Assembly: GCF_013372225.1 (NCBI RefSeq)
Contig: NZ_CP053832.1
Location: 496,001-560,000 of the forward strand
DNA: 64,000 nt
Origin: Campylobacter ureolyticus
Lineage (GTDB): Bacteria > Campylobacterota > Campylobacteria > Campylobacterales > Campylobacteraceae
Direction: 5' to 3'
A program made the position numbers and the translations under genes. The notes beneath the pieces are model-generated. The model saw nothing but the letters and a program-made list of their open reading frames with translations. It had not been told where the DNA came from and searched no databases. Of this stretch, positions 3,013 through 12,133 are shown piece after piece. Position 1 is the stretch's first letter, and the number at the start of each line of letters is the position of its first letter.

Positions 3013-3689
3013 ATGTTAAAAATAGAAAGTAAAATATATTCAAAAAATCTTAAAATTTATAAAGGCTTGTCAAAATTAATTCAAGGTTTTTTTATGCAAA
3101 TCTGCCAATAGCTGAGCACATTGGCTACAGGCATAGTAGTGGCAAAATATTTAAAAAAACAAATTTTTGTTTTAGTTTGTATAATGGTTTTTTGACAATT
3201 AAATTTAGTGCTTTGGAAAAAGAACTTGAAGAAATAGTAGCCGTATCGCTACTAAAAAATGACTTAAGACTCGGAGAAATTCGTCTTGTTGATACCTCTG
3301 TAAATTTAAGTGATCACAACACAAATAAAACTGAGATAAATTTTAATGGATATGTAGTTTGTAATGTAAAAAGCCTCTTAAATAAAAAAATCTATCTTGA
3401 ACCGCAAGACTCCAGACATCTTGAGATAATGAAAAACAACCTACTTCAAAAATACGAAACTTTTTATGGTAAAAAATACAACGAAAAGTGTGAGATAACT
3501 CTACTTTCACAAGACTTTGAAAATTACAAAAAATTCTACTATGGAAATAATGTAAATTATATGAAAGCTTGGCTTGCAACTTGGAATATAAAAGCCAGTA
3601 ACGAGCTTATAAATTTAGCACTATCTACGGGTCTTGGAGCAGGAGTAATGAGTTATGGATGTGGATTTGTAGAAGAAATTAAAGCCTAG
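3013..3689 (+). pseudogene. cas6: Cas6 pre-crRNA endoribonuclease, reading frame broken by -1 shift at a T7 tract
   Basis: Cas6 cuts the CRISPR transcript within each repeat, leaving the 8-nt handle. The gene starts at ATG 3013 behind AAAGGGG and reads 27 codons (MLKIESKIY...LIQGFF), then hits TAG at 3109. The -1 frame continues from the T7 tract (3087-3093) with YANLPIAEHIGYRHSSGKIF and runs to 3689, giving a normal ~225-residue Cas6. The C-terminal glycine-rich segment GLGAGVMSYGCGFVEE is typical of the family. The tract in frame is T TTT TTT, a canonical -1 slippery heptamer, and a 6-bp hairpin (3104-3125) follows. So the shift may be programmed or phase-variable rather than a loss; a one-base sequencing error is equally possible. 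Confidence 0.85.
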
Positions 3690-3697
3690 TTTTTTAT

Positions 3698-3767
3698 AAA
3701 ATAATAAAATTTAGCAAGGCTAACAACATATTATAAATTTCAAAATCTACAAGATTTCCTTGCTAAA
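3698..3767 (-). ncRNA. crRNA-like small RNA (CreR/CreA-type candidate)
   Basis: This lies on the minus strand, opposite to the cas genes. After a consensus promoter the transcript would begin near 3767. It contains a degenerate CRISPR repeat: its last 20 nt match the array repeat at 15 positions. The stem is ATCT-TGT-AGAT (array: ATCC-TAT-GGAT), a compensatory change, and extends to AAATCT/AGATTT (3752-3757 with 3743-3748). The handle TTTGAAAT (3744-3737) follows, then a pseudo-spacer from 3736. A 10-bp outer stem (3758-3767 with 3710-3719) followed by a U-rich stretch looks like a terminator. Known family: CreA/CreR RNAs of type I-B loci, which guide Cascade to repress promoters. No toxin gene is evident, so regulation of cas (CreR) fits better than a CreTA toxin-antitoxin. 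No expression evidence is available. Confidence 0.7.
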
Positions 3768-3773
3768 AGAGTG

Positions 3774-3802
3774 ATTATAATAAAAATATATATGAATGTC
3801 AA
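3774..3802 (-). promoter_or_regulatory. consensus sigma70 promoter for the crRNA-like RNA
   Basis: On the minus strand TTGACA (3802-3797) and TATAAT (3779-3774) are both perfect and separated by exactly 17 nt. The predicted start is near 3767, at the first base of the outer stem of the crRNA-like RNA. A perfect -35 is exceptional in Campylobacter. Confidence 0.82.
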
Positions 3803-3806
3803 AATA

Positions 3807-3825
3807 TAACTACATATTATAATAA
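3807..3825 (-). promoter_or_regulatory. pseudo-spacer target site (protospacer seed plus flanking TTA) between divergent promoters
   Basis: Read on the minus strand from 3822 to 3807, this site matches the first 16 nt of the pseudo-spacer (3736-3721) at 15 positions. The only mismatch is position 12. The base triplet 5' of the protospacer is TTA (3825-3823), where a PAM would lie. A Cascade bound here would cover the -35 of the minus promoter (3797-3802) and sit within a few bases of the -35 of the cas8b promoter (3829). Matching stops after position 16, which in known CreR systems allows binding without Cas3 cleavage. Function is inferred. Confidence 0.65.
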
Positions 3826-3828
3826 AAT

Positions 3829-3857
3829 TTGACAAAAAATTTATTTTTATTTATAAT
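3829..3857 (+). promoter_or_regulatory. consensus sigma70 promoter for cas8b-cas1
   Basis: TTGACA (3829-3834), a 17-nt spacer and TATAAT (3852-3857) give a perfect sigma70 promoter. The start point would be near 3864, some 20 nt before the cas8b ATG at 3883. It therefore excludes the longer frame that opens with TTG at 3829, whose first codons overlap the promoter. Confidence 0.85.
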
Positions 3858-3882: not shown

Positions 3883-5265
3883 ATGAGTTTGGTTCAAAAG
3901 CTTCATAATATTGGCAATTTAGTAAGCGATGATGATTTTATAAATTTATTAAAAACTGATTTTGATGCGTCAAGTTATACGGTTTTAAGCCTTAATTTTA
4001 ATATAAACAATCAAGTTCTTGTTAAAAAGCCAACTCTTACAAAAACTTCACTTGATAAACTAGATACGTTTTTTACAAAAGCGATTGGTGGAAGAGGAAG
4101 TGGATACTTCTATCTTTATCCGAATTTCACCTATCAAAAAGAGAGTGATCTTTATAAAAAGTTTAAAAATACAGCTCCAACTTTTGAAAAATCGGTGCTT
4201 GTTTTTGCAAATGAACAAAATCAAAATTTAGCAAAACCTGTTTTTGAATATATAAAAAACTATGAAAAAGATGAGCTTGAACTTAAAGCTTTTGCTAAAA
4301 ACGACTATTTGCTGATATTTACAATAAATGGAAAAACCATAAGAGAGTTAATGCCTGAAATTTTAACAAATTTCATCCAAGATTGTGCTTTTCCTCACTC
4401 TGATATTAAACTGCAAAAAAGTATTGATTTTATAACTAAAAAAGAAGATATTTGCGGATACAATCCTGATGTCAAGTTTTTTACATTTGACAATTATCAT
4501 GATAAATTTAAAGAACAAATTACTACCAAACTTCCACTTTCTCAAAAAAGTGCATCTACGATAAAAAAAGGTTGGATTTATGTTATTAATAATCTTAGAT
4601 TTTATCATAAAGGGCTTGAGTATATCATCATCCCATCGATGATCAAATTTGATAAAAAAGCATATAAAATTATATTAGACGGTTTTAAAAAGGCACAAAA
4701 AACTTATAGCTTAGAAGATAAAGCCTCAAAAGAAGATAGTTTTATAAGAAAACTTCAAAAAGAAGTGGGTGACTTGGAGATGATAAAATCAAGCTATGTT
4801 GATTTGTATTTTACTGATATAAATATAGTAAATTTATCGGTTAAAATTCTTGGAAGTATGGAAAATCTTTTGCCAAGCAAGATAAGAGATGTGGGAGCAA
4901 AGATGATGGAACAAAGGGTTTGTGATTATTATTCCATAGAAAAGAAAAAAGATGGTTTTTTGTGCCTTAGTGATTATTTTTCTGTAGATGAGCTTTTTAC
5001 GCGTTTTAAAAAGATTAAAGGCTTAGAAAACAAAGTCTTGCAAGAAAAAATATATCTTACAAAGCTGCTTTTGGGATATGAAAAGATTGAGTATTCAAAA
5101 CTTTTGGATAAATTTGAGCACTTTAGAGAATTTGATTTTGAAAACAAAAAAAAGTTAAACGATAAAAATATAAAAGAGTGGATTGAATTTAGTGATAATT
5201 TTATTCAAAACGAAGATAGAACTATAAAGTTTTTAGATAATATAAATGCGATAAAAAGGGGTTAA
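3883..5265 (+). CDS. cas8b: Cas8b, large subunit of type I-B Cascade
   Basis: The product (460 aa) resembles the Csh1/TM1802 family, the large subunit that recognises the PAM and helps load Cas3. Visible family features are the glycine-rich GGRGSGYFYLYP segment near residue 70-80 and the conserved central core GWIYVINNLRFYHKGLEY. The start is ATG 3883 with AAAGG at about 3872-3875; an in-frame TTG at 3829 lies inside the promoter and is rejected. The protein is shorter than many Csh1 proteins because the C-terminal helical part is encoded by the next gene, one base downstream. It is the first gene of a tightly packed operon to cas1. No zinc-finger cysteines are evident. Confidence 0.85.
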   Translation: MSLVQKLHNIGNLVSDDDFINLLKTDFDASSYTVLSLNFNINNQVLVKKPTLTKTSLDKLDTFFTKAIGGRGSGYFYLYPNFTYQKESDLYKKFKNTAPTFEKSVLVFANEQNQNLAKPVFEYIKNYEKDELELKAFAKNDYLLIFTINGKTIRELMPEILTNFIQDCAFPHSDIKLQKSIDFITKKEDICGYNPDVKFFTFDNYHDKFKEQITTKLPLSQKSASTIKKGWIYVINNLRFYHKGLEYIIIPSMIKFDKKAYKIILDGFKKAQKTYSLEDKASKEDSFIRKLQKEVGDLEMIKSSYVDLYFTDINIVNLSVKILGSMENLLPSKIRDVGAKMMEQRVCDYYSIEKKKDGFLCLSDYFSVDELFTRFKKIKGLENKVLQEKIYLTKLLLGYEKIEYSKLLDKFEHFREFDFENKKKLNDKNIKEWIEFSDNFIQNEDRTIKFLDNINAIKRG

Positions 5266-5665: not shown

Positions 5666-6515
5666 TGAGTTACTTTTTATCTGGGATGCAAAGATGACAA
5701 ATCCAAACGGCGATATGCTAAATGACAATGCGCCAAGATTTGATGAAACTGATAGGAAGGCTATAGTTAGCGATGTTAGAGTTAAAAGAACAATTAGAGA
5801 TGATTTACAAGATAGAAAAAATAAAACAATTTTTGTAAATAACCCAGAAATTGTTCAGTCTGCAGAAACAAGATTTAATGAGCTTAAAAAATCATCAAAT
5901 TTAAAAGATGATAGAGAAGTGTTTTTAAGCTGTATTGACAATAGGCTTTTTGGCGGAGTTGCACCAAAAAGTAATATCCAAATAATTGGCTCAGTGCAGT
6001 TTTCTTGGGCAAAATCCTTAAACCAAACAGAAACTATTTTAAGTCAAGGAACTGGAGCGTTTGGAAGAGATGGAAGTGATAATAAGACTTTTAGAACCGA
6101 TAATTACTTGCCTTATGCACTTTTTGCAATGTATGGAACTATAAACTCTATAAACGCCAAAAAATCAAATGCAAGCGAAGATGATATAAATGAGATGATT
6201 GATTCTATGTGGAATGGAACAAAACTTTTAAATACAAGAAGTAAAATTGGTCAAAAACCAAGAGCGCTTTTTAGAATAATTTATAATGATGCCTATGTTA
6301 TAGGGCTTCTTGATGAATTAATCAGTATTAAAAATAAAAATTCCGATGATATTAGAAAATTTGACGAATGTGAAATTTGCTTCGATGAGCTTATAAAAGC
6401 AGTAAAAATAGCAGATGAAAAGATAGAAAAAATAGAAATTTACTACGATGAAAGCATAAAAGAAAAGCTTAGTGTTTTTAAAGATTTAGCTAAAGTTGAT
6501 ATGAAAGTTATGTGA
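5649..6515 (+). CDS. cas7: Cas7 (Csh2 family), Cascade backbone subunit
   Basis: Cas7 polymerises along the crRNA spacer. The N-terminus ELLFIWDAKMTNPNGDM is the hallmark of the Csh2/DevR family, followed by DVRVKRTIRDDL and the glycine-rich GTGAFGRDGSDNKTFRTDNY loop. Length is 288 aa, normal for the family. ATG 5649 is preferred over the adjacent ATG 5646 because AAAGGAG (5636-5642) is then 6 nt away. The stop TGA overlaps the ATG of cas5 (TGATG), so translation is probably coupled. The frame is intact. Confidence 0.93.
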   Translation: MIAKHSELLFIWDAKMTNPNGDMLNDNAPRFDETDRKAIVSDVRVKRTIRDDLQDRKNKTIFVNNPEIVQSAETRFNELKKSSNLKDDREVFLSCIDNRLFGGVAPKSNIQIIGSVQFSWAKSLNQTETILSQGTGAFGRDGSDNKTFRTDNYLPYALFAMYGTINSINAKKSNASEDDINEMIDSMWNGTKLLNTRSKIGQKPRALFRIIYNDAYVIGLLDELISIKNKNSDDIRKFDECEICFDELIKAVKIADEKIEKIEIYYDESIKEKLSVFKDLAKVDMKVM

Positions 6516-7254
6516 TGTTTGCTTTTAAAATTTGGAGTAAATTTGGAGCTTTTAAAGACCCGATGACGATTAGTCAAAATATAACTTTAAATTTCCCTCC
6601 AAAAACAGCCGTTGCAGGTATGATGGCTGCGATTTTAGGTGTAGATGAGTATTTAAAAGATGATGGTTTTAATAGCTTTAAATATAGCGTAGTTACAAAC
6701 AGCAACACTTTAAAAAAGAGTTTTTCGCAAAATTACATAAATGACTATACTAAAAAAACAAACTCACATCTTGCTAACTTGCAAATACTAAATTTAAAGC
6801 GATAAAAGATGGCCTAAGAGATACAAAAGCACCACAAAAACCAATAAATAGAGAGCTTTTAATAAATCCAGCTTTTACTATTTTTATAGATGGGTTTAAA
6901 TTTGAAGATGAAATTGTAAAAAGCTTAAAAAGCCGTCTTTTAAAATATAATTTATACATGGGCAATAGCGAGTTTAGTGCAAATTTTAGCTTTTTGCCGC
7001 TTGAAAGTTTTTCAATGAAGAAATTTGATTTGGTAAACTTGGACTCATTTTTAGAGCAAAGCTTGGTTGAAAGTATTGAGTTTGATGAGAATGTGTTTTA
7101 TAAAAACACTCTCATTACGACAAAACTTAACCACAAACGCTCTCCTATAGAATCTATTAATTTAGTCCATTCAAATAGCAAAATAACGGCTAAAAACATA
7201 GAAGCTTATGAGATTTTGGCAAATGATAGGAAGTATTTTTGTAGGTTTGTGTGA
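6515..7254 (+). pseudogene. cas5: Cas5 (Cas5h), Cascade handle-binding subunit, reading frame broken by -1 shift
   Basis: Cas5 caps the 5' handle of the crRNA in Cascade. The first frame starts at ATG 6515 (MFAFKIWSKFGAFKDPMTI, then NFPPKTAVAGMMAAILG, the typical Cas5 N-terminus) and stops at TAA 6803. The -1 frame continues without a gap as KAIKDGLRDTKAPQKPINRE...LINPAFTIFI and ends at 7254; together about 246 aa, a full Cas5. The junction in the first frame is A AAT TTA (6790-6796), a canonical -1 slippery heptamer, but I see no strong hairpin after it. A one-base deletion, a sequencing error or programmed frameshifting would all explain this. Its stop overlaps the ATG of cas3. Confidence 0.85.
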
Positions 7255-11516: not shown

Positions 11517-12133
11517 GTATAAATTTGATCCTATGGATTTTGAAACAAAGAACTAGGATTAAACGACTTGCAAATCGCTGGTATAAATTTGATCCTATGG
11601 ATTTTGAAACTCAATATTTAAAAAGTATTTTATCTCATTATCAAGTCGTATAAATTTGATCCTATGGATTTTGAAACAAATATGATCATTCATATTCAAA
11701 TTTACATAGATTAGGTATAAATTTGATCCTATGGATTTTGAAACGAACAAAAAGGTGGGTTGTTTTCAATAAAATCTCCGTATAAATTTGATCCTATGGA
11801 TTTTGAAACTCTTTGCTAGATGAAAGCTTAGAAGCTTTAGAGAAAGTATAAATTTGATCCTATGGATTTTGAAACTCGCCACTGTCGGTCTTATAAAGAG
11901 CAGCTATACTTGTATAAATTTGATCCTATGGATTTTGAAACCTCAAAAAAGTGATAAAAGAAGTGATGGAATGAAGTATAAAATTGATCCTATGGATTTT
12001 GAAACTAAATTTGGCAAAAGCATACTTTGAGGCAGGATTGTATAAATTTGATCCTATGGATTTTGAAACATGAGTGATAATATGAGTAATTCAAATTCAT
12101 CATGTATAAATTTGATCCTATGGATTTTGAAAT
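11517..12133 (+). CRISPR. type I-B CRISPR array, 10 repeats and 9 spacers
   Basis: The 30-nt repeat begins GTATAAATTTGATCC and ends TATGGATTTTGAAAC. Repeats start at 11517, 11581, 11648, 11715, 11780, 11846, 11912, 11976, 12040 and 12104. Spacers are 34, 37, 37, 35, 36, 36, 34, 34 and 34 nt. Repeat 8 has one substitution (T to A at position 8) and the last ends in T instead of C, so 12104 is the old, leader-distal end. The repeat holds the mini-stem ATCC-TAT-GGAT, leaving the 8-nt handle TTTGAAAC after Cas6 cleavage. Spacer targets cannot be determined without a search; I saw no obvious match inside this window. Confidence 0.99.

Follow-up and report, generated by a model that had tools for sequence, protein, structure and literature searches.

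A candidate CreR-type RNA with a guide match to the cas promoter of a type I-B locus in Campylobacter ureolyticus

Known guide-RNA regulators and the locus in C. ureolyticus

CreR (Liu et al. 2023, Cell Host Microbe, cited in PMC12737573) has been described in type I systems as a crRNA-like RNA that is encoded beside the cas genes and takes Cascade to their promoter, and the locus analysed here shares these features; it differs in having one pseudo-repeat, which an outer helix closes, and a guide that, across loci, runs for about 14-24 nt before the helix. The CreA RNA of the Haloarcula CreTA module also combines a pseudo-repeat with a short, partly matching pseudo-spacer whose PAM adjoins a promoter element; in Haloarcula hubeiense it pairs at positions 1-5 and 7-11, mutation of position 6 or 12 being without effect, and the H. 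hispanica form carries a single repeat and a terminator (PMC8501985). CreA represses a toxin, however, whereas here cas8 itself stands behind the targeted promoter, pairing extends to position 13-16, and the PAM is TTA rather than TTC (PMC8501985). The type I-B system of Parageobacillus thermoglucosidasius shares the PAM TTA, and its crRNAs of at most 26 nt repress without cleaving, as we propose for the present RNA, but those guides were engineered and do not represent a natural regulator (PMC10551041).

Our analysis concerns a stretch of 64,000 nt (hereafter the window) with a type I-B locus in which a small RNA is encoded on the minus strand between cas6 and cas8b. Outside type I, the Cas9 tracr-L of Workman and colleagues (2021) is reportedly a natural single guide whose short guide segment directs autorepression at the promoter of cas; it differs from the window RNA in belonging to type II and in being derived from tracrRNA. 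We hold with high confidence that positions 3767-3710 (minus strand) encode a CreR-type RNA that guides Cascade to repress its own cas promoter without cleavage. This kind of regulator is already known; new are an order-level set of loci, a natural scan of the 6-nt periodicity, and an outer helix that seals the RNA in place of a second repeat, although a prior listing of the loci is not excluded. The features, in window coordinates, are:

3013-3689, plus strand: cas6, which in this assembly has a frameshift in the T7 run near 3087-3093
3710-3767, minus strand: gene of the CreR-like small RNA, which is predicted to be about 58-60 nt long and starts at the predicted transcription start
3758-3767, minus strand: 5' arm of the outer helix, TTTAGCAAGG, a 10-bp perfect complement to 3710-3719
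3745-3755, minus strand: pseudo-repeat hairpin ATCT-TGT-AGAT (array-repeat counterpart ATCC-TAT-GGAT)
3737-3744, minus strand: 8-nt handle TTTGAAAT (the array repeat ends in TTTGAAAC)
3720-3736, minus strand: pseudo-spacer (guide), 17 nt up to the outer helix, positions 1-16 pairing with the target except 12
3710-3719, minus strand: 3' arm of the outer helix, CCTTGCTAAA, the RNA 3' end, with an A/T-rich stretch after it
3774-3802, minus strand: small-RNA promoter, TTGACA at 3802-3797, 17 nt, TATAAT at 3779-3774
3807-3822, minus strand: target protospacer (non-target strand), 15/16 identity to the guide
3823-3825, minus strand: PAM-side trinucleotide 5'-TTA-3', seen also at 21/21 family targets and beside protospacers matched by the G015 array
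3829-3857, plus strand: cas operon promoter, TTGACA at 3829-3834, 17 nt, TATAAT at 3852-3857
3883-5265, plus strand: cas8b, first gene of the operon under the targeted promoter (PADLOC Cas8b, 1.1e-12)
6512-7254, plus strand: gene at the cas5 position, between cas7 and cas3, assigned by position with no family hit shown
11517-12133, plus strand: CRISPR array, 10 repeats GTATAAATTTGATCCTATGGATTTTGAAAC and 9 spacers

A repeat-like element (3767-3737, compared with the array repeat) is thus present outside the array and near the cas genes, and its hairpin-plus-handle layout is common to the pseudo-repeat and the array repeat of the window. Having one pseudo-repeat, it does not qualify as a CRISPR array, which requires at least two identical repeats around spacers, and Rfam has no family for the small RNA locus.

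Both divergent promoters are perfect consensus promoters, with 12/12 matches each, and the gap between the PAM and the cas -35 box is 3 nt in the window. In 16 of the 21 family loci, a TTGACA-like -35 box starts 4-7 nt from the first base of the PAM complement, a spacing that would place bound Cascade on the cas promoter. The promoter of the small RNA is oppositely oriented, and its -35 box falls just past the paired stretch in the window and in three relatives (G026, G015, G009).

The RNA could instead belong, as a CreA, to a CRISPR-guarded toxin module (CreTA or CrePA), in which case the targeted promoter would drive a toxin RNA or peptide and repression of cas would be incidental. The creTA of H. 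hispanica is likewise linked to type I-B cas genes, and three relatives (G033, G172 and possibly G171) carry an ORF of 45-55 codons for a small hydrophobic peptide between the targeted promoter and cas8, the G033 and G172 peptides being related (44% identity, E 0.001); if these peptides are toxins, the absence of a toxin gene that is expected of CreR fails in those genomes. In the window, however, 25 nt separate the end of the -10 box from the ATG of cas8, which leaves no space for an extra gene between target and cas, and many relatives are alike. With cas8 following the targeted promoter so directly, we reject the toxin reading for the window and regard it as very improbable.

Guide-target pairing in the window and across the family

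On direct reading, the guide TTATAATATGTTGTTA (minus strand, 3736-3721) and the target TTATAATATGTAGTTA (minus strand, 3822-3807) are identical at 15 of 16 positions. The one mismatch among guide nucleotides 1-16 is at position 12, positions 17-19 are also unpaired, and TTA at 3825-3823 (minus strand) forms the 5' flank of the target protospacer, all of which agrees with the original prediction, as does its placing of the site between the -35 boxes of the small-RNA and cas promoters. That prediction had allowed for a chance match in AT-rich DNA, to be judged by shuffling, and the control was passed: in a 251-nt region, a match of at least 15/16 anywhere arose in 0.0002 of 5000 dinucleotide shuffles, and a match at all 14 positions except 6 and 12 in 0/5000. 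Base composition gives a chance estimate of 3e-5 for the guide match, or 1.4e-6 with TTA required, and the 14-position site with TTA occurs a single time in the 1.82-Mb genome.

Relatives were searched with one genome per species, so that the loci found come from distinct species. A DNA search of 150 relatives recovered the intergenic region four times, in three cases from a genome with an intact but different Cas8; the guides so found differ from the window's and from one another, and in the three genomes with intact Cas8 the targets differ likewise. Further loci were found by a covariance model of the RNA and then by a Cas6-anchored search, which was used in place of a wider covariance model because the linkers were poorly aligned when MAFFT was applied to 19 sequences; searching five genomes with a short pattern lacked the specificity to be informative. 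Cas6 was matched in 27 genomes: the 23 in which the 3' end of cas6 could be read were examined, three distant matches were left out, and one (G007) has a broken cas6.

A crRNA-like gene with a matching target was present in 21 of the 23 family genomes with a readable cas6 3' end; 16 elements were detected by script, and the rest were read from the sequences and confirmed in the target table. The element always lies antisense to cas6, overlapping or abutting its 3' end, and the 21 loci hold 18 distinct guides, each of which matches its own cas promoter. Loci in which cas6 runs into cas8 are without the element, and G011 and G067 have a short cas6-cas8 gap only and no element. G007 retains the RNA, but its cas6 is broken and its cas8 split into pieces, and no target was found there.

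The predicted structure of the RNA is conserved together with its position. The inner hairpin has undergone compensatory changes across 19 sequences, and the arms of the outer helix differ greatly between species yet stay complementary, with a mean helix of 10.3 bp where mixed pairs of arms give 6.0. In most loci the RNA is predicted to start, 6-7 nt past the -10 box, on the first base of that helix or close to it. The layout of the pseudo-repeat resembles the array repeat in relatives where arrays were found, the stem letters differing from the array's in several species. Since the 3' arm of the outer helix meets or overlaps the end of cas6 on the opposite strand and covaries with the 5' arm, the inverted repeat might be mainly a terminator or an antisense control at the end of cas6, with the guide match secondary. 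Such a role would leave unexplained the co-evolution of guide and target described below, the TTA, and the likeness of hairpin and handle to the array repeat; moreover, no terminator-like site was found in a scan limited to short loops, and T-runs are absent in several species, so we consider this explanation very improbable.

The pairing of guide and target follows one pattern throughout the family. Over the 21 loci, mismatches number none at positions 1-5, eleven at 6, none at 7, one at 8, none at 9-11, thirteen at 12, none at 13, one at 14, three at 15, seven at 16 and eleven at 17, so that all but one of the 25 mismatches at positions 1-13 fall at 6 or 12, the exception being position 8 in G178. 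Choosing the target by total mismatches, with no position omitted and no PAM required, returned the same target in 21/21. The mismatch rates at positions 6 and 12 (0.52 and 0.62) come near the free-drift expectations of 0.59 and 0.65, whereas the other variable positions, up to about 11-14, show 0-5% mismatch against 32-70% expected under drift; positions 1, 4 and 7 are nearly invariant and hence uninformative. In the genome pairs G162/G079 and G044/G072, the target differs at position 12 with the guide there unchanged. The 21 loci follow the CreA/CreR rule, under which positions 1-5 and 7-11 pair while 6 and 12 are left free, and the comparison strongly supports the view that positions 6 and 12 of the guide are not read in pairing.

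When targets were permuted among guides, the observed 282/294 matches were reached in 0/20,000 permutations (mean 160, maximum 206). In 14 chosen genome pairs, 35 of the 37 differing sites had changed in both guide and target, although the pairs overlap and share ancestry, so these changes are not independent events. The original prediction had held that the mismatch at position 12 should not count, for which the 13/21 family loci mismatched there give strong support; it had looked to co-conservation of guide and target in relatives, and targets do follow guides between species; and its likening of the RNA to CreR and CreA is strongly supported by this co-evolution, by the 35/37 sites and by TTA at 21/21 targets. 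A decayed CRISPR-array remnant, or a match by chance, would suit an AT-rich region with one degenerate repeat, but it accounts for neither the shuffles, the permutations and the paired changes nor the conservation of promoter, hairpin and outer helix. Guide-target co-evolution refutes it for the family, and we give it virtually no credence.

Other families have the element as well. An order-wide draw of 398 genomes supplied 21 further cas6 loci for examination, three of which had it (G229 and G273 in family f7, G228 in f6), each with a TTA flank and with mismatches only at 6, 12 or beyond 15. The scan ignored positions 6 and 12, and a second form of it required TTA or TTC, so these loci support the presence of the element and not the pairing rule; reversed controls in the same scan gave no elements. 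In several other order-wide loci, cas6 leads directly into cas8 and the promoter between them is absent.

TTA as the PAM

TTA flanks the target at 21/21 family loci, against a background of 4.8%. The array of G015 (39 spacers) matches conjugative plasmids of Campylobacter fetus, and three of its spacers have protospacers with the 5' flanks TTTA, ATTA and TTTA; one further copy has TTTC, and a weaker fourth match, mismatched at position 1, has ATG. Searches of phage collections with the arrays of the window, G015, G171 and G158, and of plasmid collections with those of the window and G171, yielded no usable protospacers. The comparison of TTA with array-derived PAMs that had been suggested therefore came out in favour for the array of a relative, and could not be made with the window's own spacers. 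The PAM was measured on G015 alone, whose Cas8 differs from the window's, and in the absence of usable protospacers for the window array, the window PAM is inferred from relatives with TTA at the target, among which G051 and, judged by N-terminal sequence, G171 have the window's type of Cas8. With the PAM so taken from a relative, the guide is partly complementary to its cognate cas promoter beside the system's PAM, as CreR demands.

Two divergent types of Cas8b (window 3883-5265, and L010 1682-3157) are used by loci alike in Cas6 type, guide-RNA layout and TTA. In the G015 array, a 128-nt block of two repeats and two spacers is duplicated (L052, 8730-8985).

Proposed action of the RNA

Sequence and evolution show the gene, its promoters, the hairpin, the outer helix, guide-target co-evolution, TTA and that positions 6 and 12 do not matter for pairing. 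In the absence of expression or binding data, it is inferred that the RNA is transcribed and processed, that its complex binds and represses without cleaving, and how the loop senses its state. As the RNA has the sequence traits of CreR and the published descriptions fit, we file it as CreR, functional criteria aside, and propose the following steps:

(i) Cas6 would recognise the single pseudo-repeat hairpin and cut, leaving the 8-nt handle. Processing by Cas6 and loading into Cascade are inferred from the conserved hairpin and handle, with cas6 frameshifted in this assembly.

(ii) The short guide, with about 17 nt before the outer helix, would be taken up by the Cascade that this type I-B locus itself encodes.

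(iii) The complex would read TTA at 3825-3823, and guide positions 1-5, 7-11 and 13-16 would pair with the DNA between the promoters, which would put Cascade against the cas -35 box and beside the one that serves the small RNA.

(iv) The genes repressed would be cas8-cas7-cas5-cas3-cas4-cas2-cas1, and probably the small RNA too. Pairing over about 16 nt would be too short to license Cas3, and self-cleavage would not follow.

(v) Abundant array crRNAs, or an anti-CRISPR that removes Cascade, may lift the repression.

The frameshifts in cas6 and in the gene at the cas5 position (near 6780-6810 in this assembly) are of one base each, and the one in the T7 run of cas6 may reflect phase variation, decay or an assembly error. 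Should the frameshifts be genuine, this strain has probably lost a working loop that its relatives conserve; should they be errors of assembly, the loop is intact.

We suggest, tentatively and with more doubt than conviction, that these RNAs form a single-repeat class of CreR in which the covarying outer helix ties the severed 5' piece to the 3' end of the guide after the Cas6 cut, so that the helix replaces a 3' repeat hairpin and fixes a short guide fit for repression only, and in which, in a few relatives, the element has additionally taken control of a promoter that drives a small hydrophobic peptide ahead of cas8. The peptide ORFs themselves, in G033 and G172 (L128, L134) and in G171 (L130), may be CRISPR-repressed peptides.

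About two dozen natural guide-target pairs amount to an evolutionary mutation scan of how Cascade reads its target. Drift at positions 6 and 12, paired change between them and an end of pairing near position 16 provide independent evidence for 6-nt periodic reading in a bacterial type I-B system, and the guide-target set is evidence for a TTA PAM in Campylobacterales. Autoregulation of cas is thereby predicted in a clinically relevant group of bacteria.

Two observations lie apart from the cas locus. Away from its cas genes, G033 has a second repeat-like element (L075, 1298385) that includes a hairpin and a handle; no target was found nearby. In the window, a 23-nt inverted repeat (542-564 and 646-668) surrounds an AT-rich insert within the 23S rRNA gene, which resembles the intervening sequences known in Campylobacter.
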